From assembly GCA_002720855.1 (NCBI GenBank), contig PBIN01000002.1, forward strand, positions 143,930 through 207,929: a stretch of DNA of 64,000 nucleotides. Reading direction: 5' to 3'. Both the position numbers and the translations under genes were made by a program. Below are positions 4,410 to 62,677 of this stretch, one piece after another (position 1 is the first letter of the stretch; each line of letters opens with the position of its first letter). The DNA comes from Rhodospirillaceae bacterium. Its GTDB lineage: Bacteria; Pseudomonadota; Alphaproteobacteria; MPNO01; UBA2964. The notes beneath the pieces are model-generated. The model saw only the letters and a list, made by a program, of their open reading frames with translations. It did no database searches and was not told where the DNA came from.

Positions 4410-4504
4410 TGTATCAAGCGACCAGAATTCGGTACGTTGCAGCCGGTCGTGGCTAGGGGCTGCGACGGTTCTGCACCTTGAATTCTCACAGGGAGATAAA
4501 TTTT

Positions 4505-6025
4505 ATGGCAGATTCTACCGCCACAGCCGTTGACGCAGGTTCAAACGTCGGCGCCCGCATGACCTACGAGGACATGCGCGAATGGATCGTGGAGGCCGAA
4601 AAACTCGGTGAACTCCGCGTTGTTAAAGGAGCCAGCTGGGAAGAAGATATCGGTCTTGCCGCCGAGGTTGTCCAGCATGACGAAAATGCTCCTTGCATCA
4701 TCTTTGATGACGTACCCGGGTGTCCACCAGGTTTCCGCATGCTCATCAACTTTTTTGCCGGTAAGCGCAAATGCATGACGATGGGCTTTTCACCGGAATG
4801 GAACAAGCTTGAGCTCACTGACGGTGTGCATCAGCACATGAAATCCGTTGAGTCGATCCCTCACAAGATCGTTGAGACCGGCGCAGTGTTCGAGAATATT
4901 CTTGAAGGGGACGATATTGATATCGAGAAGTTCCCCGCCCCGATGTGGCATGATAAGGACGGCGGTCGTTATATCGGCACCGGGTCTTACAATGTCACAC
5001 GCGATCCCGATACCGGTTGGATCAACCTCGGCACCTATCGCGTAATGATCCAAAGCAAAAATGAAGTTGGATTCTATATCTCGCCGGGTAAACACGGCAG
5101 GATCCATCGCGACAAGTACGAAGCCAACGGCGAAGCAATGCCTGCTTGTATTGTTTTGGGTGGCGATCCCATGGGCTTCCTGATGGGTTGTACTGAATTG
5201 CCTCCAGGTGAATGCGAATATGACATTCTCGGTGGTTATCGGGGCCATGCAACCGAATGTGTGGAAGGCAAGCATACCGGTCTGCCGTTCCCGGCCAATG
5301 CCGAAGTTGTGATTGAAGGATTCGTTCAACCTGACAACCGCCGCATCGAAGGACCTTTTGGTGAGTGGACTGGATATTACGGTTCTGACGTTCGACCAGA
5401 GCCCATCCTGGATATTAAGGCGATCTATCACCGGAACGACCCGATTATTCTGGGATGTCCTCCACTGCGTCCGCCGGATGAGCTGGCACGTTATCGCGCT
5501 GTCACACGTTCAGCTGCTCTCAAGGAGAATATTGAGCGCGCTGGTGTACCGGATATTACCGGTGTTTGGGCCCATGAATGTGGCACCGCCCGTATGCTCC
5601 TTGGTATTTCGATCAAGCAGCGTTATCCCGGTCATGCTATGCAGACCGGTCACGTTGCCGCGATGTGCCACACAGGTGCTTATGCAGGTAAATATGTCAT
5701 CGTCGTAGATGATGATATCGATGTTACCAATCTTGAAGAGCTGATGTGGGCGGCGATTACCCGCTCCGATCCGGCAACGTCGATTGATATCATTCATAAT
5801 TGCTGGTCAACGCCTCTTGATCCGCGCATTCCGCCGGAAGAGAAGGCCAAAGGCAATCTGACCAATAGCCGCGCTATCATTGATGCGTGCCGGCCATTCC
5901 ACTGGAAGGAAGATTTCCCTGCAGTGAATTCGCCGGAGCCTGCTGTCATGAAACAGGCCTATGAACAGTGGGGTCACCTCTGTGACCCGGTAACCCCTGA
6001 GAATCAGGTTGTTACGAAGAAGTAA
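4505..6025 (+). CDS. UbiD-family prenylated-FMN decarboxylase, paralogue 1
   Basis: A 506-residue UbiD-family (de)carboxylase that would use prenylated FMN to decarboxylate an aromatic or unsaturated acid. The ATG at 4505 is chosen because GGGAG lies about nine bases upstream; an in-frame TTG at 4478 has no such site. The family catalytic set is present: WINLGTYR at residues 172-179 supplies the Asn and Arg matching N168 and R173 of fungal Fdc1, and EGPFGE from residue 282 supplies the two Glu matching E277 and E282. It is a close paralogue of the gene at 13290. No UbiX-type flavin prenyltransferase is visible in the window, so the cofactor must come from elsewhere. It is probably LysR-controlled and ends in its own terminator. 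Confidence 0.92.
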   Translation: MADSTATAVDAGSNVGARMTYEDMREWIVEAEKLGELRVVKGASWEEDIGLAAEVVQHDENAPCIIFDDVPGCPPGFRMLINFFAGKRKCMTMGFSPEWNKLELTDGVHQHMKSVESIPHKIVETGAVFENILEGDDIDIEKFPAPMWHDKDGGRYIGTGSYNVTRDPDTGWINLGTYRVMIQSKNEVGFYISPGKHGRIHRDKYEANGEAMPACIVLGGDPMGFLMGCTELPPGECEYDILGGYRGHATECVEGKHTGLPFPANAEVVIEGFVQPDNRRIEGPFGEWTGYYGSDVRPEPILDIKAIYHRNDPIILGCPPLRPPDELARYRAVTRSAALKENIERAGVPDITGVWAHECGTARMLLGISIKQRYPGHAMQTGHVAAMCHTGAYAGKYVIVVDDDIDVTNLEELMWAAITRSDPATSIDIIHNCWSTPLDPRIPPEEKAKGNLTNSRAIIDACRPFHWKEDFPAVNSPEPAVMKQAYEQWGHLCDPVTPENQVVTKK

Positions 6026-6083: not shown

Positions 6084-6149
6084 CTATTCGACATTCCAAA
6101 TCGGACTCTAAAGTTTCGATGACTTGACCTATGCGCACGCTTACTTAAA

Positions 6150-6216
6150 TTGTTTGATAAGTTGTTAAGAATAATTATCATTTGCAATTGGAATGCGAAT
6201 GATAACTATTCGCATT
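6150..6216 (+). repeat. 67-bp direct repeat, copy 1 (promoter of the iron operon)
   Basis: This segment recurs at 12917-12983 with about four mismatches. It carries a promoter and a Fur-type box. The two copies bracket the hemP-to-DUF1513 operon. Confidence 0.85.
6154..6216 (+). promoter_or_regulatory. Fur-type iron-responsive promoter of the hemP operon
   Basis: TTGATA (6154-6159), a 16-bp spacer and TATCAT (6176-6181) form a sigma-70 promoter. Just downstream is the inverted repeat AATGCGAAT-N7-ATTCGCATT (6192-6216), the form of a Fur-family box. It lies 24 bp before the hemP start and overlaps the expected transcription start, so metal-bound repressor would block the promoter. Whether the regulator is Fur, Irr or another family member is not decided by the sequence. 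Confidence 0.75.
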
Positions 6217-6239
6217 GTGAAGTGTTAGAAGATTAAGGG

Positions 6240-6404
6240 ATGAAACCAGAGTCTGATAAAGATCGGGATCGTACCGTTAGCGAAGTGCCGACGGTTTCGA
6301 GCCGCGATCTTTTGAACGGCGGACACAGGATAAATATCGAGCATGATGGCGAGATTTATCAGATCAATGTTACTCGCCGTGGAAAACTCATACTCATAAA
6401 GTAA
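6240..6404 (+). CDS. hemP: HemP haemin uptake protein
   Basis: A 54-residue protein, MKPESDKDRDR to GKLILIK. The C-terminal half (SRDLLNGGHRINIEHDGEIY, then INVTRRGKLILIK) fits the HemP/HmuP family (PF10636): a short Ser-x-x-Leu-Leu start, an I.H.G..Y core and the terminal GKLILxK. Family members are small cytoplasmic proteins needed for haem or iron uptake gene expression in several proteobacteria. It is the first gene after the Fur-type box, with AAGGG close to the start codon. It is followed by an LbtU-like porin gene after 106 bp. Confidence 0.85.
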   Translation: MKPESDKDRDRTVSEVPTVSSRDLLNGGHRINIEHDGEIYQINVTRRGKLILIK

Positions 6405-6510
6405 CAATCCCTTAACCTTAAAAACGACCTTAAATCCAAGGCAAGCCAGCCAAAAGCCAGTCAGCCGCATATACTGGGTTTGTGTATTAACTAGTAGAGG
6501 GGACTGATTG

Positions 6511-7695
6511 ATGAAGTTTGGAACAGTTGGGATGGCATCTCTGGCCGCTTTAGCGTGCGCGGTGCCTGTTTTGAGTGGTCCGGCACTAGCACAAAGCTCT
6601 GTGTTAGAACGACTTGCCGCCATGGAAAAACGAATCAAATATTTGGAAAGCCGCGTTGCTTCCTAGGATAAGGTGATCGTTGAAAAAGACCGGCAGCTAG
6701 GTCAGATGAAGAAGGCCCAGGAATCAACCAGTTCAGGTTGGCTCAACAATGTTACGATTTCTGGCGCCGTTGAACTCGAAACTTCATACAACAGCCCGTA
6801 CACTGGGGACTCTACCAGCGATGCAACCGTGGCCACTGCTGAAATTGGTATAGAGGCTCAAGTGCATGATTGGGTAAGTGCACAAATTACCCTTCTTCAT
6901 GAGGAAGATGACACTAGCCTGGAAGTGGTCTCGGCATCCTTTACAATCGGTCCACCGGAAGGAAACTGGTCGCTTACGGCTGGTCAAATCGTTGTACCGT
7001 TTGGTGCATACGAATCAAACATGATTTCGGACCCTCTTACACTTGAGGTAGGTGAAGCCAAGGAAACCGCTATCCAGTTATCGTTCAACAATGGCGGATT
7101 CTCGGGTTCGGTATATGCCTTTAACGGCGCCAACAAGGACGGTGGAGACAACCACATTGATAACTTCGGTGCATCCATTGGCTACGCCATGGAGTCCGAA
7201 AATAACTCCTTCGCCTTCGGCTTGGGTTATATCAATGACATTGGTGACTCAGATAATTTACAAAGCACAGTGAGTACGACGCTTGGAAGCGCGAATATTA
7301 GCGACCATGTTGGTGGCTGGGCTGCAAATGCATCTGTCACATTTGGACCATTTGCTCTGATTGGTGAGTACCTTTCCGCTTTCGATAACTTTGAAGCAAA
7401 TGAAGTGGTGTTCAACGGTAGAGGTGCGGAACCAAGCGCGTGGCATGTTGAAGCGGCTTACAACTTCAATGTTGGCGGAAAAGACGCCACTTTTGCTGTT
7501 TCGTATCAGGGAACTGATGAAGCGCTTGCGCTTGAGCAACCTGAACAGCGCATTATGGTCGGTCTTTCCGTCGGTCTCTTCGAAAATGTCGGATTGGCAT
7601 TCGAATGGGCTCACGACGAAGACTATAGTGTTGCAGATGGTGGAACCGGCAATACCGCAAACACAGTCACCGGCCAGATCGCCGTTGGATTTTAA
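6511..7695 (+). pseudogene. LbtU-like outer-membrane porin gene interrupted by an in-frame TAG
   Basis: The ATG at 6511 follows GAGGGG and opens a signal peptide (MKFGTVGMASLAALA to GPALAQ), then a short coiled coil (VLERLAAMEKRIKYLESRVAS). A TAG at 6664-6666 stops the frame. The same frame continues at once with DKVIVEKDRQLGQMKK, finishing the coiled coil, and a roughly 330-residue beta-barrel ending in GQIAVGF with a terminal aromatic residue. Signal peptide, coiled coil and barrel are the layout of LbtU-type siderophore porins. With the stop, the barrel (GTG possible at 6673) would have no export signal. Recent nonsense mutation, sequencing error or readthrough all remain possible. The position in an iron operon supports the family call. 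Confidence 0.65.
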
Positions 7696-7721
7696 TTTGA
7701 GAGGATAAAGGGAAAACAGTT

Positions 7722-8984
7722 ATGAGATTTTTCATAGCCATTGCGGCGGCAGTCGTTCTGACGTCCACAGCTTACGCCGGACATCACGAGAAAAAGGCCG
7801 TCATTGAGCAATACACTAAGATAGCGCATGCGATGTATTCGGATTCGCTAACCACGGCGAAAAGGCTCCAAAGTATTGTAAATCGCCTTATCGCGCAGCC
7901 CACTGAAGCTAATCTTGCGGCAGCACGCACAGCTTGGCTTGCTGCACGTGTTCCTTACCAGCAAACGGAAGTTTACCGTTTCGGAAACGCGATTGTTGAT
8001 GACTGGGAAGGAAAGGTAAATGCCTGGCCGTTGGATGAAGGTTTGATTGATTACGTCGCCGCAAGTTATGGCGCGGAATCTGAGGAGAACCCTTTCTATC
8101 GGGCAAATGTCATTGCCAATAAATCGATTAAGATCTCAGGCAAGACCGTTGATACGTCGCGGATTACCAAAGCATTGATTTCCAAGACGTTGCACGAAGT
8201 GAATGAGGTCGAGTCCAACGTTGCTACAGGATATCACGCGATCGAATTCTTGTTGTGGGGACAGGACCTTAATGGAAATGGTCCGGGCGCCGGCAATCGG
8301 CCAGCTTCCGACTTCGACCCGAAAAACTGTTCCTGGGGCAATTGTGATCGCCGCGCAGCATATCTAAAGGCTGCTTCCGATCTGTTGGTCGATGATCTGG
8401 TTTGGATGACAAATCAATGGGCACCTAATGGCAAGGCGACTGTTGGCCTCGTCAAAGGTGATGTCAAAAAGGGGCTTTCCACGATCCTCACCGGGATGGG
8501 CAGTCTTTCATATGGCGAACTCGCTGGTGAGCGCATGAAGCTCGGGTTGATGCTTAAAGATCCAGAAGAAGAGCATGATTGCTTTAGCGATAACACGCAC
8601 AATTCGCACTACTATGATGCGTTGGGAATTCGCAATATCTATCTTGGTGAATACCGTCGTATCGATGGAAGCGTTGTTAAGGGCCCGAGCCTGTCGAGTT
8701 TGGTTGCCAAGACCAGCAAAGGTGTCGATCAGGAATTACGGAGTAAACTCGACGCCACGATGTCTGCTATGGGTAAACTCGTCAAAGCTGCTGAAGCTGG
8801 CGAAGCTTATGACCAGATGATTGGCCCAAATAACAAGGCAGGTAATGCAAGGGTTCAAGCTGCAGTAGACGCTTTGACCTCGCAGACCAAATCTATCGAA
8901 AAAGCGGTTGCTGCCTTGGGTCTGAGCCGCATCAAATTCGAGGGATCAGATTCTCTCGATAATCCGTCAGCCGTGTTCCAGTAA
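7722..8984 (+). CDS. Imelysin-family iron-regulated protein (peptidase M75-like)
   Basis: A 420-residue periplasmic protein with a clear signal peptide (MRFFIAIAAAVVLTSTAYA). The imelysin signature GxHxxE is present as GYHAIEFLLWGQD (His172, Glu175), the motif shared with EfeO and IcmP. Family members are iron-regulated and most likely bind iron or an iron ligand; proteolytic activity is doubtful. It lies 26 bp after the porin and 30 bp before the di-haem protein. The order imelysin, di-haem oxidoreductase, imelysin, DUF1513 is a known conserved set in proteobacteria. Confidence 0.92.
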   Translation: MRFFIAIAAAVVLTSTAYAGHHEKKAVIEQYTKIAHAMYSDSLTTAKRLQSIVNRLIAQPTEANLAAARTAWLAARVPYQQTEVYRFGNAIVDDWEGKVNAWPLDEGLIDYVAASYGAESEENPFYRANVIANKSIKISGKTVDTSRITKALISKTLHEVNEVESNVATGYHAIEFLLWGQDLNGNGPGAGNRPASDFDPKNCSWGNCDRRAAYLKAASDLLVDDLVWMTNQWAPNGKATVGLVKGDVKKGLSTILTGMGSLSYGELAGERMKLGLMLKDPEEEHDCFSDNTHNSHYYDALGIRNIYLGEYRRIDGSVVKGPSLSSLVAKTSKGVDQELRSKLDATMSAMGKLVKAAEAGEAYDQMIGPNNKAGNARVQAAVDALTSQTKSIEKAVAALGLSRIKFEGSDSLDNPSAVFQ

Positions 8985-9014
8985 GAACAGGCTGGATTAA
9001 ACCTCTGTACTACC

Positions 9015-10517
9015 TTGTTGGGCGGTCGGAACATACTGGTATTCTTCCAGATATGTTCCGCCGCCCTCATTGTTTCGTTATCTCACTCCAAGGCCTTCGC
9101 ATCAGACAAAAAAGTCGTGATGCCAACCGGCGACTTCTCTCTCGCTGAGAAGTACGAGTTCTTTTCCGCCGGTGCTGCGACGTCGCGGAAAAAAATAAAT
9201 TCAAATTCGTTTTCGCAAAACTCGGCAAACATGAAGTTTAGTCGGGAGCTGGATTTCAAAGTTGGAAATAGCTTCTTCAGGCGGATTTGGGTAACCGCAC
9301 CAGCATCGACACAGGCGGCTGACGGGCTTGGCCCGCTCTTTAACGCACGTTCCTGTCAAAGGTGTCATCTGAAGGATGGTCGCGGACATCCACCGGCCGC
9401 GAAATGGCCCGAAGATAACGCGGTCTCTATGCTCATCAGATTAAGTATTCCGCCGCAAAACAAGGAAAATGTTATGGCGGTCGCTAGCGGTCGCCGCACA
9501 GTTATCGGTGATCCCGTTTATGGTGGGCAGCTTCAAGACCGTTCTATCATCAATGTTCCAGCCGAAGGAAATTTCAAGATCGACTACCGCGAAAAAAAGG
9601 TTGAGTTGAATGGAGGGGAAATCGCTTACCTTAGACGGCCTACCTATTCAATTTTTAACCTCGGTTACGGTAGTCTCCATCCTCAAATTATGATGTCGCC
9701 GCGTGTCGCGCCGCCGATGATTGGTCTCGGGTTTTTGGAAGCGATCGCCGAGAAAGATATCCTTGCCCAGGAAGATCCAGACGACAAAGACGGTGATGGT
9801 ATTTCCGGTAAAGCCAACCGGGTTTGGAGTCCAAAGTTGAAGCGCGTTGCGCTGGGCCGATTTGGCTGGAAGGCCGGTATAGCCACCATGGAAGATCAGG
9901 TGTCAGCAGCATTTTTGGGAGATATCGGTATTTCGACACCGCTATTTCCCAAAGGTAGGGGCGAATGTACCGATGCCCAAAAAGAATGTGTCAGGGCGCC
10001 AACAGGAAACAGCCCACGATATGCCAATCTCGAAGTGGATCAGCAGATCGTCGATCTGGTTACTTTTTATTCTCGTAACCTTGCCGTACCTGCGCGAAGG
10101 AATTTCAGAAACAAATCAGTCCTGGCCGGGAAGAAGCATTTTTACAAAGCAGGTTGTATTGCCTGTCATCGCCCAAAGTACATTACTCCGCGAAATATTC
10201 CCGGTATGCCGGAACAATCCCGACAGCTGATTTGGCCCTATACGGATTTGCTATTGCATGACATGGGCGATGGTCTCGCAGACAATCGCCCGGAAGGGCA
10301 TGCCAACGGAAGAGAGTGGCGGACACCTCCTCTCTGGGGAATAGGGCTGACAAAAACGGTCAATAAGCACACGTTTTTTCTTCACGATGGAAGAGCGCGG
10401 AGTCTTCTGGAAGCAATTCTGTGGCATGGTGGTGAGGCTGAAAGCGCCAAGCAGAAAGTTATTAAAATGCAACCGGAGGAACGAAAAAACCTGATCCGAT
10501 TCTTGGAGTCGCTATGA
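9015..10517 (+). CDS. Di-haem oxidoreductase (DHOR family, DUF1111)
   Basis: A 500-residue secreted c-type cytochrome with two haem-binding CxxCH sites, CQRCH at about 114-118 and CIACH at 381-385. The family segments GRGHPP, DMGDGLADNRPEG, EWRTPPLWGIGL and FLHDGRARSLLEAILWHGG are intact. The start is the weakest part: the frame opens at TTG 9015 or 9018 without a clear ribosome site, followed by a usable signal peptide (LVFFQICSAALIVSLSHSKAFA). In this operon type the protein is thought to serve redox steps of periplasmic iron handling between the two imelysins. Its stop is one base from the next start. Confidence 0.88.
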   Translation: MLGGRNILVFFQICSAALIVSLSHSKAFASDKKVVMPTGDFSLAEKYEFFSAGAATSRKKINSNSFSQNSANMKFSRELDFKVGNSFFRRIWVTAPASTQAADGLGPLFNARSCQRCHLKDGRGHPPAAKWPEDNAVSMLIRLSIPPQNKENVMAVASGRRTVIGDPVYGGQLQDRSIINVPAEGNFKIDYREKKVELNGGEIAYLRRPTYSIFNLGYGSLHPQIMMSPRVAPPMIGLGFLEAIAEKDILAQEDPDDKDGDGISGKANRVWSPKLKRVALGRFGWKAGIATMEDQVSAAFLGDIGISTPLFPKGRGECTDAQKECVRAPTGNSPRYANLEVDQQIVDLVTFYSRNLAVPARRNFRNKSVLAGKKHFYKAGCIACHRPKYITPRNIPGMPEQSRQLIWPYTDLLLHDMGDGLADNRPEGHANGREWRTPPLWGIGLTKTVNKHTFFLHDGRARSLLEAILWHGGEAESAKQKVIKMQPEERKNLIRFLESL

Positions 10518-10518
10518 A

Positions 10519-11673
10519 ATGAATTCTAGAACCCGAATTAAAAGAATTGAATCCTGGCTGATTAATTTCTTTTCATGCCTGTTCGTTGTCATTCTGTGTG
10601 CGCTTGTTATTGTCGGCGTACAGCGAAAACTCAGTGCTGCAGACTCACCAAATTTCGCAACAGTAAATTTAAAATTGGCACAATCCCATATTCTTCCACG
10701 GTATAAACGTCTGCAGACAAATGCTGCTCAATTCGAAGACGCTATAGTTAAACTTTGCAACGCCGCGGCGCCGCGCGACCCTTCGGCATCTCAGGCAGCA
10801 TTCCATCAGTTGATGGATGGTTGGATGGCGATCGAGCATATTCGACATGGCCCGGTGGAACTTTTGATGCGGAATTTCCGTATTCACTTCTGGCCTGATA
10901 AAGGAGCACGCGGCGCACGACAGATTCGTCTGCTCCACCAACGGCGTGATCAATCTGGATTGAAAAAGGATGCCTTTACTTCCGCCAGCGTGGCGGTTCA
11001 GGGTCTACCCGCCGCGGAACGGTTACTTTTCAGCAAGTCATATTCCAAGACGATTATCGATGCGAAGGAAAAAAATTACACATGCCAACTTTTGCAAGCG
11101 ATTGCTCAAAACATCAATGACATCTCCAAAGAGTTATTAGCGAGCTGGTCGCCGGGGTCTAATTCATACCAGGCCGTGATTCAGAATGCCGGAAAGCCAG
11201 GAAATAAATTTTCCAAACCTAAGGACGCAACCGCGGATTACGTAAAAGCAATGCATACGACGTTGAAGGTTTTGACCGATTTGAAACTGGATCGCGTTCT
11301 TGGAAAAACCATTGAGAAGGTCAAACCCAAGCGTGCGGAGTCGTGGAGAAGCAAGAGATCGCTCAGAAACATTATTTTTAACCTGAAAGCGCTCCAGGCA
11401 ATGTATGAGGGTGAAAAAGGGCTCGGTTTGAAGCACCTGATCGAGAGCAAACATCCCGACCTTTCCCGGCTGTTGTCTCGCGCTTTCAAAAAGACACTGG
11501 AAACCGCGCAAAGTATTCAACAACCGCTTACCGACGCTGTGACAATGCCTAAGCCGCGTTCCAAAGTCTTGCGCCTTGCGAAAGAAATGCGGGCACTGAA
11601 AGTGCTGGTAAGTGGCAAGCTTGCGCCGGCGATCGGCACGCCGCTCGGATTTAATGCCCTTGATGGGGACTAG
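10519..11673 (+). CDS. Second imelysin-like protein, without the GxHxxE motif
   Basis: A 384-residue protein starting one base after the stop codon of the di-haem gene, which implies translational coupling. An N-terminal membrane anchor or signal (about residues 17-38, FFSCLFVVILCALVIVG) leads into an all-helical imelysin domain. The GxHxxE motif of the first imelysin is replaced by VQGLPAAERLLF, the pattern typical of the second imelysin in these operons. This suggests it does not bind metal in the same way and may be a partner subunit. Confidence 0.82.
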   Translation: MNSRTRIKRIESWLINFFSCLFVVILCALVIVGVQRKLSAADSPNFATVNLKLAQSHILPRYKRLQTNAAQFEDAIVKLCNAAAPRDPSASQAAFHQLMDGWMAIEHIRHGPVELLMRNFRIHFWPDKGARGARQIRLLHQRRDQSGLKKDAFTSASVAVQGLPAAERLLFSKSYSKTIIDAKEKNYTCQLLQAIAQNINDISKELLASWSPGSNSYQAVIQNAGKPGNKFSKPKDATADYVKAMHTTLKVLTDLKLDRVLGKTIEKVKPKRAESWRSKRSLRNIIFNLKALQAMYEGEKGLGLKHLIESKHPDLSRLLSRAFKKTLETAQSIQQPLTDAVTMPKPRSKVLRLAKEMRALKVLVSGKLAPAIGTPLGFNALDGD

Positions 11674-11675
11674 GT

Positions 11676-12797
11676 TTGCTGTTTAGCCGCCGCCGAGCGC
11701 TTCAATTATTATCGGGTACAGTGGCAGGTGGCATAATGCCACTTTCATCACCGATAGCAGGCGATGACGACGTAGCGTTTCTTTCCGCAAATGCAGACCG
11801 CCAGAAACAGTTCCATGCTGCAGGATTAACGCCCGCTGGGAACATTGCGTTCGAGATGAGAATTCCGCAGCGTGGCCACGGAGTTGCGACGCATCCTTCG
11901 GGTAGAGAAGCTGTAATTTTTGCTCGTCGGCCGGGGAATTTCGCTTTCGTATTCGATTGCAAACTTGGCCATAAAATTAGATTTCTTCAGAGCCCGACAG
12001 GCAGCCATTTTTATGGTCACGGGGTATACTCAAAAGACGGTCGGCATCTATTCTCAACCGAAAACAACTACGGGGACGGCCGTGGGTTCATTGGTGTTTG
12101 GGATACGCAGCGCGGTTATCAACGGATGGGTAGGTGGGCAAGCGGGGGCATCGGTCCACATGAGCTGGTACTGTCGCAAGATGGCAAACAACTTATTGTC
12201 GCGAATGGGGGCCTTCGAACGCATCCGGAGACCGGTCGCCAAAAACTCAATATTCCGACGATGCAGCCGTCGCTGACATTTCTGGACATCAAGAATGGGA
12301 CCATCGCCGCCAGCTACAAGTTTGAGCAATCTCGTCTTCGTTTCTTGAGTATCCGTCATTTGGCCGTAAATAAGTCCGGCGATGTCTGCATTGCCATGCA
12401 GGACCAGGGACCGAGACACGACTTGGTGCCTCTAGTTGCATTGTTTCGTCGGGGTTCGAATCGCCTGCAATTACTCGCTGCGCCGGAAGCCACAACTCTA
12501 CGCTTCAAAGGGTATGCAGGTGCGACAAAAATGGATGAATCCGGTCGGTTTGTTGCGATGTCGGCGCCTCGGGGAGACCGAATTGCATTCTGGGATGCCA
12601 AAGACGGTAAATTTCTGACGGAAACCAGGTTGGTAGACGGGTGCGGGGTAGCAGGGACAGGGGTAGAGGGTGAGTTTGTTGCGACGAGTGGTACTGGAAA
12701 AGTTATAAAAATCGAGAACCTTACCGGTCCCACTCTAAAAATTAATTCGGAACAAACATCCAACCGGTTTTGGGACAATCACCTAACACGTTTGTAG
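11676..12797 (+). CDS. DUF1513 beta-propeller protein with Tat-like signal
   Basis: A 373-residue protein that begins at TTG 11676, two bases after the imelysin stop. The N-terminus (MLFSRRRALQLLSGTVAGG) looks like a twin-arginine signal. The rest is a seven-bladed-propeller-type protein of family DUF1513 (PF07433), with phrases such as GHGVYSKDGRHLFSTENNY and RGFIGVWD. It is the usual last gene of imelysin operons. The molecular role is not known; periplasmic location and iron regulation are inferred from signal and context. Confidence 0.85.
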   Translation: MLFSRRRALQLLSGTVAGGIMPLSSPIAGDDDVAFLSANADRQKQFHAAGLTPAGNIAFEMRIPQRGHGVATHPSGREAVIFARRPGNFAFVFDCKLGHKIRFLQSPTGSHFYGHGVYSKDGRHLFSTENNYGDGRGFIGVWDTQRGYQRMGRWASGGIGPHELVLSQDGKQLIVANGGLRTHPETGRQKLNIPTMQPSLTFLDIKNGTIAASYKFEQSRLRFLSIRHLAVNKSGDVCIAMQDQGPRHDLVPLVALFRRGSNRLQLLAAPEATTLRFKGYAGATKMDESGRFVAMSAPRGDRIAFWDAKDGKFLTETRLVDGCGVAGTGVEGEFVATSGTGKVIKIENLTGPTLKINSEQTSNRFWDNHLTRL

Positions 12798-12916
12798 CGC
12801 ATCTTTGCAAAATCCGCCCTGAGAGAAGCCCGAAACAGGCCGTTTCTGTGTGCGCCTATTGTCTTTCGGTAGCTAATCTGACCTCGGCCAATTTTTTTTA
12901 ACCTAAATGGCTTTAT

Positions 12917-12983
12917 TTGTTTGACAAGTTGTTAAGAATAATTATCATTTGCAATTGGAATGCGAATGAGAATGATTCGCATT
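12917..12983 (+). repeat. 67-bp direct repeat, copy 2
   Basis: Second copy of the segment at 6150-6216. The mismatches are one base in the -35 hexamer and three in the 7-bp centre of the Fur box; the rest is identical. It begins 120 bp after the DUF1513 stop codon. Confidence 0.85.
12921..12983 (+). promoter_or_regulatory. Second Fur-type promoter, upstream of a short untranslated segment
   Basis: Consensus TTGACA (12921-12926), a 16-bp spacer and TATCAT (12943-12948), then AATGCGAAT-GAGAATG-ATTCGCATT (12959-12983). The centre AATGAGAATGATT is closer to a classical Fur box than copy 1. The -35 is also better than in copy 1, so this may be the stronger promoter. Confidence 0.75.
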
Positions 12984-13118
12984 CATCGGGAGTTTAGGCT
13001 CTCGATACCCGTCAGTTTTGTTCACGATGGGAACATGCTGGCTTACACCTCTGTACCTTCATGGGCGGTGGCAAATTCTGGTTTTCCTCCCGAAATTACC
13101 CACCGCCCATTTTTTTTC
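12955..13118 (+). ncRNA. Candidate Fur-regulated small RNA
   Basis: The promoter at 12921 should start transcription near 12955, and a strong terminator ends at 13118, giving an RNA of about 160 nt. No convincing protein is encoded: the only open frame from 12960 reads through the terminator stem and has no ribosome site. A Fur-controlled promoter followed by a short RNA and an intrinsic terminator is the architecture of RyhB and PrrF RNAs, which repress iron-using proteins when iron is scarce. No sequence relation to those RNAs is claimed. It could instead be a leader of the UbiD gene at 13290, though the terminator argues against that. Confidence 0.55.
13061..13118 (+). terminator. Strong intrinsic terminator of the candidate small RNA
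   Basis: Perfect 11-bp stem ATGGGCGGTGG (13061-13071) and CCACCGCCCAT (13100-13110) with a 28-base loop, followed by seven T. It lies about 170 bp before the next gene. Confidence 0.85.
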
Positions 13119-13289
13119 TTAAAATTGAGAATTTGTCCGGCGGTCCGTCCTTTACGGTCCGGTGACATCCTAGCTCAACTATTTCAAATTCGGATTCAAA
13201 TTTAGGTTTTGAATAGGCGTTACTGCGGCTGGCCCCCACCGCACAAACACGATACAACATTCCCTAAATAATCAATTAGGGACGGCTAG

Positions 13290-14780
13290 ATGAGCGATTC
13301 CACGGCTAAAGCTGAAATTGCGGATACGGGAGCCAATGCGGCCTGCGCGTTGGAATATGTCGACCTACGGGATTGGCTGGATGAGGTCGAAAAACGCGGC
13401 GATCTGAAAGTCGTAACCGGCGCAAGTTGGGAAAAGGATATCGGCCAGGTTGTTGAGGTTATGTGCCACGATGAGGGTACGCCCAGCATTGTGTTTGATG
13501 AGGTGCAAGGCTGCCCTAAAGGGTTCCGCCTCCTGATCAATTGGTTCACCGGCACACGCAAGAACCTGACATTGGGTTTTCCGTCCAATCTCAACAAGTT
13601 GGAACTCAGCCAGTCCTATCACCAGCACACACGCAATCTAGATCCGATCCAGCATGAGATCATCGAAGACGGACCGATTTTTGAGAATATCATTGAAGGT
13701 GACGATATTGATGTCACCAAATTCCCCTCGCCACTATGGAATCCGGCGGATGGTGGGCGCTATATCGGCACCGGATGTTTTAACATCACCCGCGACCCCG
13801 ATACCGGCTGGATTAATTGCGGAACCTATCGTGTCATGGTGCATGATGAAAAACGCGTTGGGCTTTATATCTCGCCCGGCAAACATGGCCGTATCCATCG
13901 TGATAAATACATGGCGAAGGGCGAGCCAATGCCAGTCTGCATCGTCGTTGGCAGCGACCCGTTATCATTCCTGACATCCTCCACAGAGGCGCCGGAAGGC
14001 ATGTGCGAGCTGGATATGATGGGTGCATACCGGGGCGAGGCGATCAAATGCGTGATCGGCAAGCATACTGGCCTGCCATTTCCCGCCAATTCCGAGATTG
14101 TCATCGAAGGGTTCATTCATCCCGGCAATACAGCGCCCGAAGGACCGTTTGGTGAGTGGCTTGGCTATCAGGGCGGGCAGATGGAGGCAGAACCCTGGGT
14201 CGATATTTCCGCCATCTATCATCGCAACGATCCGATCATGCTTGGTGCGGCTCATATCCGCATGCCATATGAGTATGCGCGCTATCGGGCAATCAGCCGG
14301 TCTGCTGTTCTCAAGGAAAACATCGCGCGCGCCGGTGTTCCCGATGTCGACAATGTCTGGGCTCATGAGGTCGGTGGATCGCGACTGTTCCTGGCGATTG
14401 GTATCAAGCAGCGTTATCCGGGCCACGCGACACAGGCCGGCCATATTGCGGCCACCTGTCATGCAGGTGCCTATCTAGGCCGAATTGTTGTGGTGGTTGA
14501 TGAGGATGTAGACGTTACGAGCCTCGATGAGGTGATATGGGCGGTCTGCACGCGCTGCGATCCGGCCAGCGGTATCGATATTATTCACAACATGTGGTCA
14601 TCGGCGCTTGATCCAGTGATATCTCCTGATGACCGCAAGGCTGGAAAGCTTTATAACAGCCGGGCAATTATCGATGCCTGCCGGCCGTTTCACTGGAAAG
14701 ATGAGTTTCAGGAAGTAAACGCCCCAACTCCAGAGGCCCGCCGTGAAGCGTGGGACAAGTGGGGGCATCTCAGAGATTGA
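13290..14780 (+). CDS. UbiD-family prenylated-FMN decarboxylase, paralogue 2
   Basis: A 496-residue UbiD-family enzyme and the closest relative in the window of the gene at 4505, sharing long identical stretches such as GGRYIGTG, TRDPDTGWIN, ISPGKHGRIHRDKY and GKHTGLPFPAN. The Asn and Arg of WINCGTYR and both Glu of EGPFGE are conserved, so it should be active with prenylated FMN. GGGACGG lies a few bases before the ATG. It is followed after 61 bp by another UbiD gene, and a terminator closes the pair. The two probably act on related aromatic acids, or one may be a partner subunit. Substrate unknown. Confidence 0.92.
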   Translation: MSDSTAKAEIADTGANAACALEYVDLRDWLDEVEKRGDLKVVTGASWEKDIGQVVEVMCHDEGTPSIVFDEVQGCPKGFRLLINWFTGTRKNLTLGFPSNLNKLELSQSYHQHTRNLDPIQHEIIEDGPIFENIIEGDDIDVTKFPSPLWNPADGGRYIGTGCFNITRDPDTGWINCGTYRVMVHDEKRVGLYISPGKHGRIHRDKYMAKGEPMPVCIVVGSDPLSFLTSSTEAPEGMCELDMMGAYRGEAIKCVIGKHTGLPFPANSEIVIEGFIHPGNTAPEGPFGEWLGYQGGQMEAEPWVDISAIYHRNDPIMLGAAHIRMPYEYARYRAISRSAVLKENIARAGVPDVDNVWAHEVGGSRLFLAIGIKQRYPGHATQAGHIAATCHAGAYLGRIVVVVDEDVDVTSLDEVIWAVCTRCDPASGIDIIHNMWSSALDPVISPDDRKAGKLYNSRAIIDACRPFHWKDEFQEVNAPTPEARREAWDKWGHLRD

Positions 14781-14841
14781 ACCTAATGGTCGCTGCAATC
14801 GTGCGGGCGACTCTGAATTTGTTGAAAGAGGAGAAGTAAAA

Positions 14842-16299
14842 ATGGATGGTGGCAGGGAGAATTTTAGCCCGCAAACTGATTTACGTGATTTTCTCGCGGC
14901 ATGCGAAGAAAACGGCCAGCTTGAGAAAGTAGACGGCGCGCACTGGGACAAGGAAATGGGTGCCGTCGTTGAGGTGCTCTATCGTGAGCGCGTTGAGAAG
15001 GCCAAAGCTGTTCTGTTTGATAACATTCCGGGATATCCCGAAGGCTATCGCTGCCTTTATGGCATGCTGGCATCGCCGTTTCGTCTGGCGCTCGCCGTTG
15101 GTATGGATACAGAGCTGCGCGACAATCGCTTTGAACTTCTCAAGGCGTATCGCGAGAAGATGTTCAACCATGAACCGATCCCGCCGCGCCATGTCGATGA
15201 AGGTCCGGTTATGGAGAACATCATTGAAGGCGATGATATCGACATTGAGAAAACAATTCCCGTGCCGATCCATCATGAGCTGGATGGCGGGCGCTATATC
15301 GGAACGGCCTGCGGTGTTATCACCCGCGATCCTGAAAATGGTCGGGTAAACTCCGGTACCTATCGCTGTATGGTGCATGACGGTCAGACACTCGGCGTCA
15401 TGGCGTCGAACGGTAAGCAGGGTAATATCCAGCGGGCCAAATATTTCGCCAAAGGCGAACCTTGCCCGGTAACGGTCGTGGTCGGTGTTGATCCAACCCA
15501 TTTCCTCGCCGCACGGATGACGATTCCGGATGATGTTGAAGAGTTTGCTTTCCAGGGCGGTCTTGCCGGCAAGCCGATTGATCTGATCACCGGCGATAAT
15601 GGTCTGCCATTCCCGGCGCACTCGGAAATCGTCATTGAAGGTTATCAATACCCTGACGAGACCCGTCTGGAAGGGCCGTTCGGTGAGTGGACCGGTTACT
15701 ATGCCGGTGATGCCGAGCAGGACCCGGTTTTCAAAATCACCAAGGTCTATCATCGGAACAACCCGATCCTGACTTGTGCTGCGAGCCAGAAGCCGCCGCA
15801 TTCACATCTGTTCGAGCGTTGCTTCACCCGTTCGGTGACCTTGCTTGAAGGGCTGCAGAAGGCTGGCGTTCAGGACGTTCGCGGTGTTTGGCATCATGAA
15901 GCCGGTTCCGGCCGGACATTCGTGGTGGTTTCCATCAAACAGCGTTTCTATGGTCATGCCACTCAGGCAGGGCTGATGGCATCGCAGCTCAATCCAGCGA
16001 CCTATTGCGGTCGTTATACGGTTGTGGTCGATGAGGATATCGAAGCGCATAATCTTCATGACGTCGTATGGGCGATGGGCACGCGGTCTGATCCTGAGAA
16101 GGACATTATCCATCTCAACCAGTGCCAGTCATCGCGTCTCGATCCGATGCATGGTGAAGACACGCTCTACAATACGCGGGTGGTTATCAACGCCTGCCGG
16201 CCGTATGAGCGGATCGAAACCTTCCCGGCAGTTGCCCAGACCTCGCCGGAACTTAATGCGGAAGTTCGCAAGAAGTTCCCGCAGGTATTCGATTACTAG
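14842..16299 (+). CDS. UbiD-family prenylated-FMN decarboxylase, paralogue 3
   Basis: A 485-residue UbiD-family protein. ATG 14842 is chosen because AGGAGAAG lies seven bases before it; the frame is open upstream to 14743 but would overlap the previous gene without a ribosome site. Cofactor and catalytic residues are conserved in VNSGTYR and EGPFGEWTGYY. It is more distant from paralogues 1 and 2 than those are from each other (for example MASNGKQGNIQRAKYF where they have ISPGKHGRIHRDKY), so it probably differs in substrate. It is expressed with paralogue 2 and ends at the terminator at 16341. Confidence 0.92.
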   Translation: MDGGRENFSPQTDLRDFLAACEENGQLEKVDGAHWDKEMGAVVEVLYRERVEKAKAVLFDNIPGYPEGYRCLYGMLASPFRLALAVGMDTELRDNRFELLKAYREKMFNHEPIPPRHVDEGPVMENIIEGDDIDIEKTIPVPIHHELDGGRYIGTACGVITRDPENGRVNSGTYRCMVHDGQTLGVMASNGKQGNIQRAKYFAKGEPCPVTVVVGVDPTHFLAARMTIPDDVEEFAFQGGLAGKPIDLITGDNGLPFPAHSEIVIEGYQYPDETRLEGPFGEWTGYYAGDAEQDPVFKITKVYHRNNPILTCAASQKPPHSHLFERCFTRSVTLLEGLQKAGVQDVRGVWHHEAGSGRTFVVVSIKQRFYGHATQAGLMASQLNPATYCGRYTVVVDEDIEAHNLHDVVWAMGTRSDPEKDIIHLNQCQSSRLDPMHGEDTLYNTRVVINACRPYERIETFPAVAQTSPELNAEVRKKFPQVFDY

Positions 16300-61015: not shown

Positions 61016-62677
61016 ATGGCGAACGATCCTAAATCGTTTGACGGTAAGGGATATCCCGATTTTCAGGATCACCTGAAAGCGCTTGATGAAGCGGGCTTGC
61101 TTGAGACCGTCGACAAGCCGGTCAATAAAGACACTGAAATGCACCCGCTGGTGCGTTGGCAATTCCGGGGTGGAATCCCTGAAACCGATCGAAAGGCGTT
61201 TGTTTTCAACAATATTACCTGCTCGCGCGGCCAATCATATGGCCTGCCTGTGGCGGTGGGGGCGCTCTCGGCCAACCGGGCAATTTACAGCATTGGTATT
61301 GGTGCCGATGTTGAGGACATCGGGAAGGTGTGGAGCAATGCGATTGCCAACCCGATTGCACCCCGTGAGGTGACGGAGGCACCGTGCCAGGAAGTCGTTA
61401 TTGACTCTGATCTCGAAGGAGAAGGGAAGGGCCTGGACAGCTTGCCGATCCCAATTTCGACACCGGGATTTGATAGCGCTCCGTATTTCACTGCAACCGG
61501 CTGTATCAGTCGTAACCCCGAAACCGGTGTGCAGAACATGGGCACCTATCGTGCAGGGCTGAAAAGCTCGACGCGAATGGCGGTGCGCATGTCAGTCCGG
61601 TCGGGCGGAGCGGAAGGTCACCAGCACTGGCTGCAATACAAGGAACGCGGCGAAAAAATGCCAATGGCGATCATCCTCGGCGGGCCACCCAGCGTTTGTT
61701 ACTGCGCGCCGCAAAAGCTGCAGCTTGGTGTCGATGAGGTTGGCGTTGCCGGCGGCCTGGTTGGCAATCCAATCAATATGGTGAAAGCCAAGACGGTAGA
61801 TCTCATGGTTCCAGCGGAAGCCGAAATCGTCGTCGAAGGATATATCGACCCGGAATACCTGGAGCCCGAAGCACCATTTGGCGAAAGCCACGGCCATATT
61901 GCGCTGGAAGATTACAACAACATCATGGAAATAACGGCCATCACCCATCGCAAAAGTGCTGTCATCGCCAGCATCATTTCACAGGTGACGCCCTCTGAAT
62001 CGAGCGTCATCAAACGCGTTGCGTGGGAGCCGGTATGGTACAACCATCTGACGGATCACCTCGGCATCAAGGGCATCAAGCGGGTCTCGATGCACGAGCC
62101 GCTAACCAATATCCGCCGGGTGCTGTTTATCGTATTTGAGCGTGGGGTCCCGACCACGGAAATCTGGCGGGCGCTTTATGGTGCTTCAGTGCTCAACTCT
62201 GCCGTCGGCAAATACATTATTGCGGTGAATGAGGATATTGATCCCGACGAGGGAGATGCTGTTTTCTGGGCGCTGGCCTATCGCGCCAACCCGGCGCTTG
62301 ATGTCGCAATCCTGCCACATCGCGACAAAGGCCATGGTCCAAAAAGCGATCTTCGAATGGGACGCGAAGAAGCGACCATGCTGATCGATGCGACGCTTAA
62401 ATCGGATATGCCGCCGATTGCCCTGCCAACCAAAGAATATATGGAAGGGGCCAAAGAGCTTTGGGAGAAGCTCGATCTGCCGCCGCTCAAACCAGAGAGC
62501 CCATGGCATGGCTATTCGCTGGGTGACTGGCATGATCAGTGGGAAGACATGGCGAAACGGGCGGCTGATGGCAATTATCTGGAAAATGGGCGCAGAAGCG
62601 CGCAGCTGCGCCGAAATGACGTCTTCCCCAATACGTCCATCCGCGATGTACCCGGCAATCCATTTGAGGACGAATAG
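61016..62677 (+). CDS. UbiD-family prenylated-FMN decarboxylase, paralogue 4
   Basis: A 553-residue UbiD-family enzyme of a different subgroup from paralogues 1-3 (opening DFQDHLKALDEAGLLETVDK, MHPLVRWQFRGG). The catalytic pieces are kept as VQNMGTYR, with Asn and Arg, and EAPFGESHGH, where both Glu are conserved although the family's EGPFGEW reads EAPFGES. GGGGAGAG precedes the ATG. An operator-like palindrome lies upstream and a TetR gene follows after 14 bp, so the gene is probably induced by its substrate through that regulator. Substrate unknown. Confidence 0.92.
   Translation: MANDPKSFDGKGYPDFQDHLKALDEAGLLETVDKPVNKDTEMHPLVRWQFRGGIPETDRKAFVFNNITCSRGQSYGLPVAVGALSANRAIYSIGIGADVEDIGKVWSNAIANPIAPREVTEAPCQEVVIDSDLEGEGKGLDSLPIPISTPGFDSAPYFTATGCISRNPETGVQNMGTYRAGLKSSTRMAVRMSVRSGGAEGHQHWLQYKERGEKMPMAIILGGPPSVCYCAPQKLQLGVDEVGVAGGLVGNPINMVKAKTVDLMVPAEAEIVVEGYIDPEYLEPEAPFGESHGHIALEDYNNIMEITAITHRKSAVIASIISQVTPSESSVIKRVAWEPVWYNHLTDHLGIKGIKRVSMHEPLTNIRRVLFIVFERGVPTTEIWRALYGASVLNSAVGKYIIAVNEDIDPDEGDAVFWALAYRANPALDVAILPHRDKGHGPKSDLRMGREEATMLIDATLKSDMPPIALPTKEYMEGAKELWEKLDLPPLKPESPWHGYSLGDWHDQWEDMAKRAADGNYLENGRRSAQLRRNDVFPNTSIRDVPGNPFEDE

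Follow-up and report, generated by a model that had tools for sequence, protein, structure and literature searches.

A Fur-box RNA gene apparently formed from a deleted copy of an iron operon in a Rhodospirillaceae bacterium, and a conserved Fur-box RNA candidate in Thalassospira

Structure and Organization of the Locus

The window, i.e., the whole stretch of 64,000 nucleotides analysed here, harbors an iron operon (hemP-porin-imelysin-DHOR-imelysin-DUF1513) followed by a putative non-coding RNA gene, both embedded between two UbiD genes. The features relevant to this work are the following:

approx. 6100..13228, no strand assigned: species-specific insertion (operon plus RNA gene) between two UbiD genes, with empty sites in the genomes G002, G007, and G008
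6152..6216, + strand: parental promoter and Fur box of the iron operon, near-identical to the promoter/operator of the RNA gene
6240..6404, + strand: hemP, hemin uptake protein (Pfam PF10636)
7722..8984, + strand: imelysin (M75; Pfam PF09375), the gene from whose 3' end the RNA body is derived
8927..9080, + strand: source of the RNA body, i.e., imelysin C-terminal hairpin, stop, and junction hairpin (sequence comparison)
9015..12797, + strand: remaining iron operon, with DHOR di-haem protein, second imelysin, and DUF1513 (Pfam)
12921..12948, + strand: sigma-70-type promoter TTGACA-16-TATCAT (consensus scan; a 94% copy of the 6152-6216 promoter)
12937..12949, + strand: second AT-rich Fur-like element AATAATTATCATT, overlapping the -10 of the RNA gene
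12955..13118, + strand: predicted non-coding transcript of ~160 nt, with the start inferred from the -10
12959..12983, + strand: Fur palindrome AATGCGAATGAGAATGATTCGCATT, 25 bp, with perfect arms, immediately 3' of the -10
12977..13121, + strand: diverged copy of the imelysin 3' end and the imelysin/DHOR junction hairpin (75% identity to 8927-9080 over 144 aligned columns)
13043..13060, + strand: C/U-rich linker TTACACCTCTGTACCTTC, weakly structured, a likely pairing seed
13061..13117, + strand: intrinsic terminator, with an 11-bp stem (13061-13071 / 13100-13110), a 28-nt structured inner loop, and T8 at 13110-13117

An earlier sequence-only reading of this stretch had proposed a Fur-controlled small RNA at 12921-13118, and its structural elements were recovered at the coordinates given. 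The -35 TTGACA (12921-12926) and the -10 TATCAT (12943-12948) are present with the 16-nt spacer that it had described and match the consensus at 11/12 positions. This is the sole site with at least 11/12 matches in the 64-kb window, where ~0.9 are expected by chance (first-order Markov model, same composition), so that the promoter match by itself proves nothing. The 25-bp Fur-type box reported in the same reading is a perfect palindrome, and the same box is found at iron-related units of the genome; likewise, the 11-bp terminator stem was found as described, the run following it being counted here as eight T. The bounds of the ~160-nt unit, for which no plausible protein had been seen, were also confirmed, and the predicted transcript contains no complete ORF of at least seven codons. 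The predicted RNA (12955-13120) has a folding energy of -64.3 kcal/mol (z = -6.4 versus dinucleotide shuffles), and the inner loop of its terminator contains TTTTCCTCCC, which is anti-Shine-Dalgarno-like. Two further copies had escaped the sequence-only reading, a near-identical one of the promoter and Fur box at 6152-6216 and one of the 3' half at 8927-9080.

The comparison with Rfam that it had suggested retrieved no family, permissive settings included: no match was obtained at the gathering score across the window, and none up to E = 5 over 12780-13300. A homology to RyhB or PrrF was rejected, the Rfam covariance models being unmatched at the RNA gene, which, judged by its sequence, is neither of the two.

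The Fur-Type Box in the Genome

The core TGCGAATGAGAATGATTCGCA, searched with up to three mismatches, occurs at six sites in the 3.58 Mb genome, and the reversed control pattern at none. Besides the RNA gene, the box is located upstream of the hemP/imelysin operon (6152-6216), of fumC, of a hupE-like gene, which is followed by a Ni-SOD gene (sodN) and its peptidase gene (sodX), and of a gene for a TonB-dependent receptor. The names of these genes, other than hemP, were assigned from translations; fumC, as judged from its sequence, encodes the iron-free class II fumarase. hemP, fumC, hupE-sodN, and TonB receptor genes are typical iron-starvation genes. It is well supported by these sequences that the predicted operator of the RNA gene is of the Fur type and common to four iron-related transcription units of the genome. 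The sixth match, with three mismatches, is located on contig 15 (G000:C15:371208-371228, L100), near a short ORF without an obvious link to iron.

The regulators encoded in the genome comprise a Fur/Mur-type protein, an Irr above the NCBIfam cut-off, and a third family member. The Fur-type protein obtains its best scores with Fur models, yet under their curated cut-offs, and the rhizobial members of this Fur/Mur clade sense manganese; for these reasons, the name Fur is deduced here from the regulon.

Origin of the RNA Gene

The RNA gene is composed of two blocks, both of which have a homologous counterpart in the adjacent operon. The region 12917-12983 (67 bp) shares 94% identity with the hemP operon promoter (6152-6216), and the RNA body aligns to 8927-9080 with a Smith-Waterman score of 105; 300 shuffles reached at most 34, 20 other operons at most 39, and 0.4 Mb of sequence from this genome at most 37. 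The two blocks join at CGCAT, a motif that the imelysin gene shares with the right arm of the Fur box. In the simplest history that can be read from these sequences, a duplication of the 5' part of the adjacent operon (hemP-porin-imelysin) would have given a second copy, which would then have undergone an internal deletion between the CGCAT microhomologies, losing hemP, the porin gene, and nearly all the imelysin gene. Such a deletion would bring promoter, operator, and terminator to ~160 nt apart. The possibility of a genome-wide mobile repeat was rejected, the elements being present at the operon and at the RNA gene only.

The iron operon is kept in 20 fetched relatives and is complete in nearly all of them; a search for related loci that started from the DHOR protein yielded none that could be used. 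Since a GC-rich hairpin, often with a T-run, is located at the imelysin/DHOR junction (the position of an attenuator) in most of these 20 alphaproteobacterial operons, the terminator of the RNA gene is most likely the ancestral terminator/attenuator of the imelysin gene. On the whole, a Fur-controlled unit that originated from a copy of the operon appears very probable.

Distribution of the RNA Gene

The flanking UbiD genes (4478-6025 and 13290-14780) have orthologs in the congeners G002, G007, and G008 that adjoin each other, separated by a short spacer (157 bp in G002 and 214 bp in G008). The window aligns to this empty site from 5900 to ~6084-6112 in all three genomes and over ~13228-13289 in G007 and G002. 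The existence of an empty site in three congeners indicates that ~7.1 kb, comprising the operon and the RNA gene, are an insertion in the species of the window. In G001 and G003, ~1.4 kb of other sequence is located between the UbiD genes. Among 60 related genomes searched (61 including its own), the RNA gene is absent, the other matches being Fur-box fragments or chance; the close relatives, in which the sequence-only reading had expected conservation to be checked, harbor no copy and also lack the whole insertion. Matches to the DUF1513 of the operon were obtained in only two other genomes of the order, one match being partial.

Signs of Maintenance

The promoter/operator differs from the parental one at 4 of 65 positions, and the body at 36 of 144 (p = 8e-5 under neutral decay at the rate of the body), even though the 94% promoter identity could instead reflect gene conversion. 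Under 25% random substitution starting from the parental hairpin, the terminator stem (-25.9 kcal) exceeds the neutral mean (-13.3; p = 0.009), the T8 run is reached in 0.07% of the neutral trials (p = 0.0007), and several changes in the stem preserve pairing with respect to the parental hairpin. If the ancestor is placed midway (half divergence), the stem-retention test is not significant (13%, p about 0.1). From its sequence, the RNA gene looks as if it has been maintained as a unit that is transcribed and terminated; this comparison involves two copies and is silent on selection for the RNA sequence itself.

Predicted Targets and Possible Function

In order to predict targets, accessibility-weighted duplexes were computed against ~400 gene starts from fetched stretches of ~0.46 Mb including the window. 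In these predictions, the RNA pairs preferentially through the linker CACCUCUGUACCUUC, which is involved in 35 of the 40 best duplexes. Iron-cofactor families (Pfam) account for 10/40 top predicted targets versus 5/50 random genes (Fisher p = 0.054); with a top-30 cut, picked after viewing the list, they are 10/30 (p = 0.012). The ten are four TauD, a 2OG-Fe(II) oxygenase, two Rieske proteins, an MbnB-type enzyme, a DHODB Fe-S protein, and a LeuC-like aconitase-family protein. acnA ranks 38 and sdhC is unremarkable. This predicted list is compatible with iron sparing and represents no evidence for it. The proposal of a Fur-controlled small RNA stands for the Fur-type operator, the non-coding unit, and the intrinsic terminator, all at the sequence level, and is not established as regards a RyhB-like iron sparing.

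The anatomy, the origin, the regulon membership of the box, and the insertion are legible in the sequence; transcription, Fur binding, and a base-pairing function are predicted, as follows. When iron is plentiful, Fe-Fur would shut the RNA gene off; under iron starvation, the RNA would be made together with the operon and would most likely base-pair via its C/U-rich linker UUACACCUCUGUACCUUC, which is exposed, and via the CCUCCC loop, so as to block ribosome-binding sites. This complete explanation, i.e., a gutted, Fur-repressed operon copy acting as a base-pairing sRNA, is one for which we consider the chances evenly balanced.

A different possibility is that the gutted copy is a transcribed relic, still switched by Fur and terminated, whose RNA is idle. 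Its birth by deletion, its presence in one species only, and the unconvincing predicted targets would all fit such a relic; on the other hand, while the body has diverged by 25% with indels, the -35 (now the consensus TTGACA), the Fur box, the stem, and the T-run are intact or better, and we regard an idle RNA as a less likely, though serious, explanation. The RNA might also act as a mimic or sponge, which would copy the imelysin/DHOR junction, titrate a protein, an RNase, or an sRNA acting there, and in this way tune its own operon. Such a role would agree with a sense copy of the junction that retains both hairpins and with co-expression from the same kind of promoter; however, the single-stranded parts have drifted in sequence, and we know of no factor acting on the junction hairpin, which makes this role improbable. 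Even less credit can be given to the idea that only the operator and promoter matter, as an extra Fur site serving the downstream UbiD gene or titrating Fur: that gene does begin ~170 nt past the T-run, but a strong intrinsic terminator intervenes, and the UbiD gene of the congeners has its own leader without a Fur site. Lastly, a small-protein gene is hardly conceivable and was rejected, for the 81-codon frame that begins with the ATG at 12960, 5 nt past the predicted start, reads across the terminator, and no complete frame of seven or more codons fits within the transcript.

A Fur-Box RNA in Thalassospira

A second Fur-box RNA was first seen in the operon L093 of genome G291, where a Fur-like box, a short non-coding stretch, and a terminator are located ~170-380 bp behind DUF1513:

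L093:5395-5630, minus strand (also in L101-L129 and L130-L147): Thalassospira Fur-box RNA gene, ~150 nt, recognized by conservation and covariation

The element is present in 29/29 genomes (29 species) of the genus and in 0/31 outside it, and its exact core pattern retrieved 18 records among 85,000 genomes, all of them from Thalassospira. Conservation begins at the Fur-type box and mostly stops at the terminator. In the alignment, both main helices show compensatory changes, with six pairs changed on both sides, and the blocks GGCTTGTC and CTCTCAAGGTGG are invariant. Nothing above threshold was found in Rfam for the L093 region, the RNA being without an Rfam family, and the search of the literature on Thalassospira sRNAs yielded nothing relevant.

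The invariant seed CUCUCAAGGUGG is complementary to the ribosome-binding region of acnA and, partly, of sdhC. In each of the five species tested, UCUCAAGGUGGU is predicted to pair with ACCACCUUGAGG across the ribosome-binding site of acnA; in three of them, the top predicted match is the sdhC site. In G291, acnA ranks first, sdhD (identified from sequence and position) second, and sdhC third among 113 gene starts, which include the acnA and sdh loci, fetched as prior candidates. The Thalassospira RNA is thus predicted by the duplex model to shut off aconitase and succinate dehydrogenase, and targets of this type correspond to the classical logic of RyhB and NrrF.

Like the window RNA, the Thalassospira RNA occupies the slot directly downstream of an imelysin-DHOR-imelysin-DUF1513 operon and possesses a Fur-type palindrome at its start, giving a 5' hairpin, as well as C/U-rich exposed parts and a strong terminator. 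Unlike it, the Thalassospira RNA has covariation across 29 species, predicted pairing with acnA, sdhC, and sdhD, and no detectable homology to the operon. The two RNAs align with a Smith-Waterman score of 22, which is at the chance level; since they are not homologous, their common slot behind DUF1513 may be the result of coincidence or convergence. The window RNA gene is plausibly either an independently born Fur-driven sRNA gene or a transcribed relic, and is much less certain than the Thalassospira case. It is only tentatively that the two can be put together as unrecognised Fur-repressed iron-sparing sRNAs behind the imelysin-DUF1513 operon, one being an ancient acnA/sdhCD silencer in Thalassospira and the other an RNA born independently from a gutted operon in the species of the window.

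Comparison with Known Systems

Iron-sparing sRNAs under Fur control have been described in gamma- and betaproteobacteria and in Firmicutes. As in the case of RyhB (Enterobacteria), PrrF (Pseudomonas), NrrF (Neisseria), FsrA (Bacillus), and IsrR (Staphylococcus), the window RNA gene has a Fur-type operator on its promoter, and the RNA is short and non-coding, with an intrinsic terminator and an exposed C/U-rich stretch. Unlike them, it has no Rfam match, it is derived from an iron-uptake operon, and its targets are only predicted. The RusT RNA of Caulobacter crescentus is, like the window RNA, alphaproteobacterial and non-coding; it is induced by iron starvation and controlled by NtrYX, its promoter has no recognisable Fur box, and the authors state that no sRNA was identified in the Caulobacter Fur regulon (PMC11005374).

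The sequence-only reading had held that alphaproteobacteria generally lack RNAs of this type. In the light of the strong Thalassospira candidate, this looks wrong as a generalisation, and alphaproteobacteria probably have Fur-driven iron-sparing sRNAs. In Thalassospira, a cultivable genus, the RNA represents a directly testable candidate for a RyhB analogue, its predicted pairing positions at acnA and sdhC being exactly defined.

As to the window RNA, the Fur-box sRNA gene is a kind of gene already known; it is its birth that is unusual and well documented. The locus represents a concrete route by which such genes may be born, i.e., the duplication of an iron operon and the deletion of its coding part, keeping the switch and the terminator. 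In the literature on sRNA birth by duplication or internal deletion, no directly relevant title was found.

Other Observations on the Window

In the porin-like gene following hemP (6511-7695), an in-frame TAG at ~6664-6666 splits the signal peptide/coiled-coil part from the barrel; this might be due either to a broken gene, to read-through, or to a sequencing error. The DHOR gene apparently has a TTG start, with the junction hairpin (9015-9066) specifying its signal peptide, so that an RNA structure resembling an attenuator would also have a coding role; the start of the DHOR gene appears to lie past this hairpin in many relatives. Lastly, four UbiD-like genes are located in the window (4478-6025, 13290-14780, 14743-16299, and 61016-62677), out of 12 UbiD-like decarboxylase genes in this genome (E <= 1e-80) and about a dozen per genome in the genus, an abundance that suggests an expanded metabolism of aromatic or unsaturated acids.
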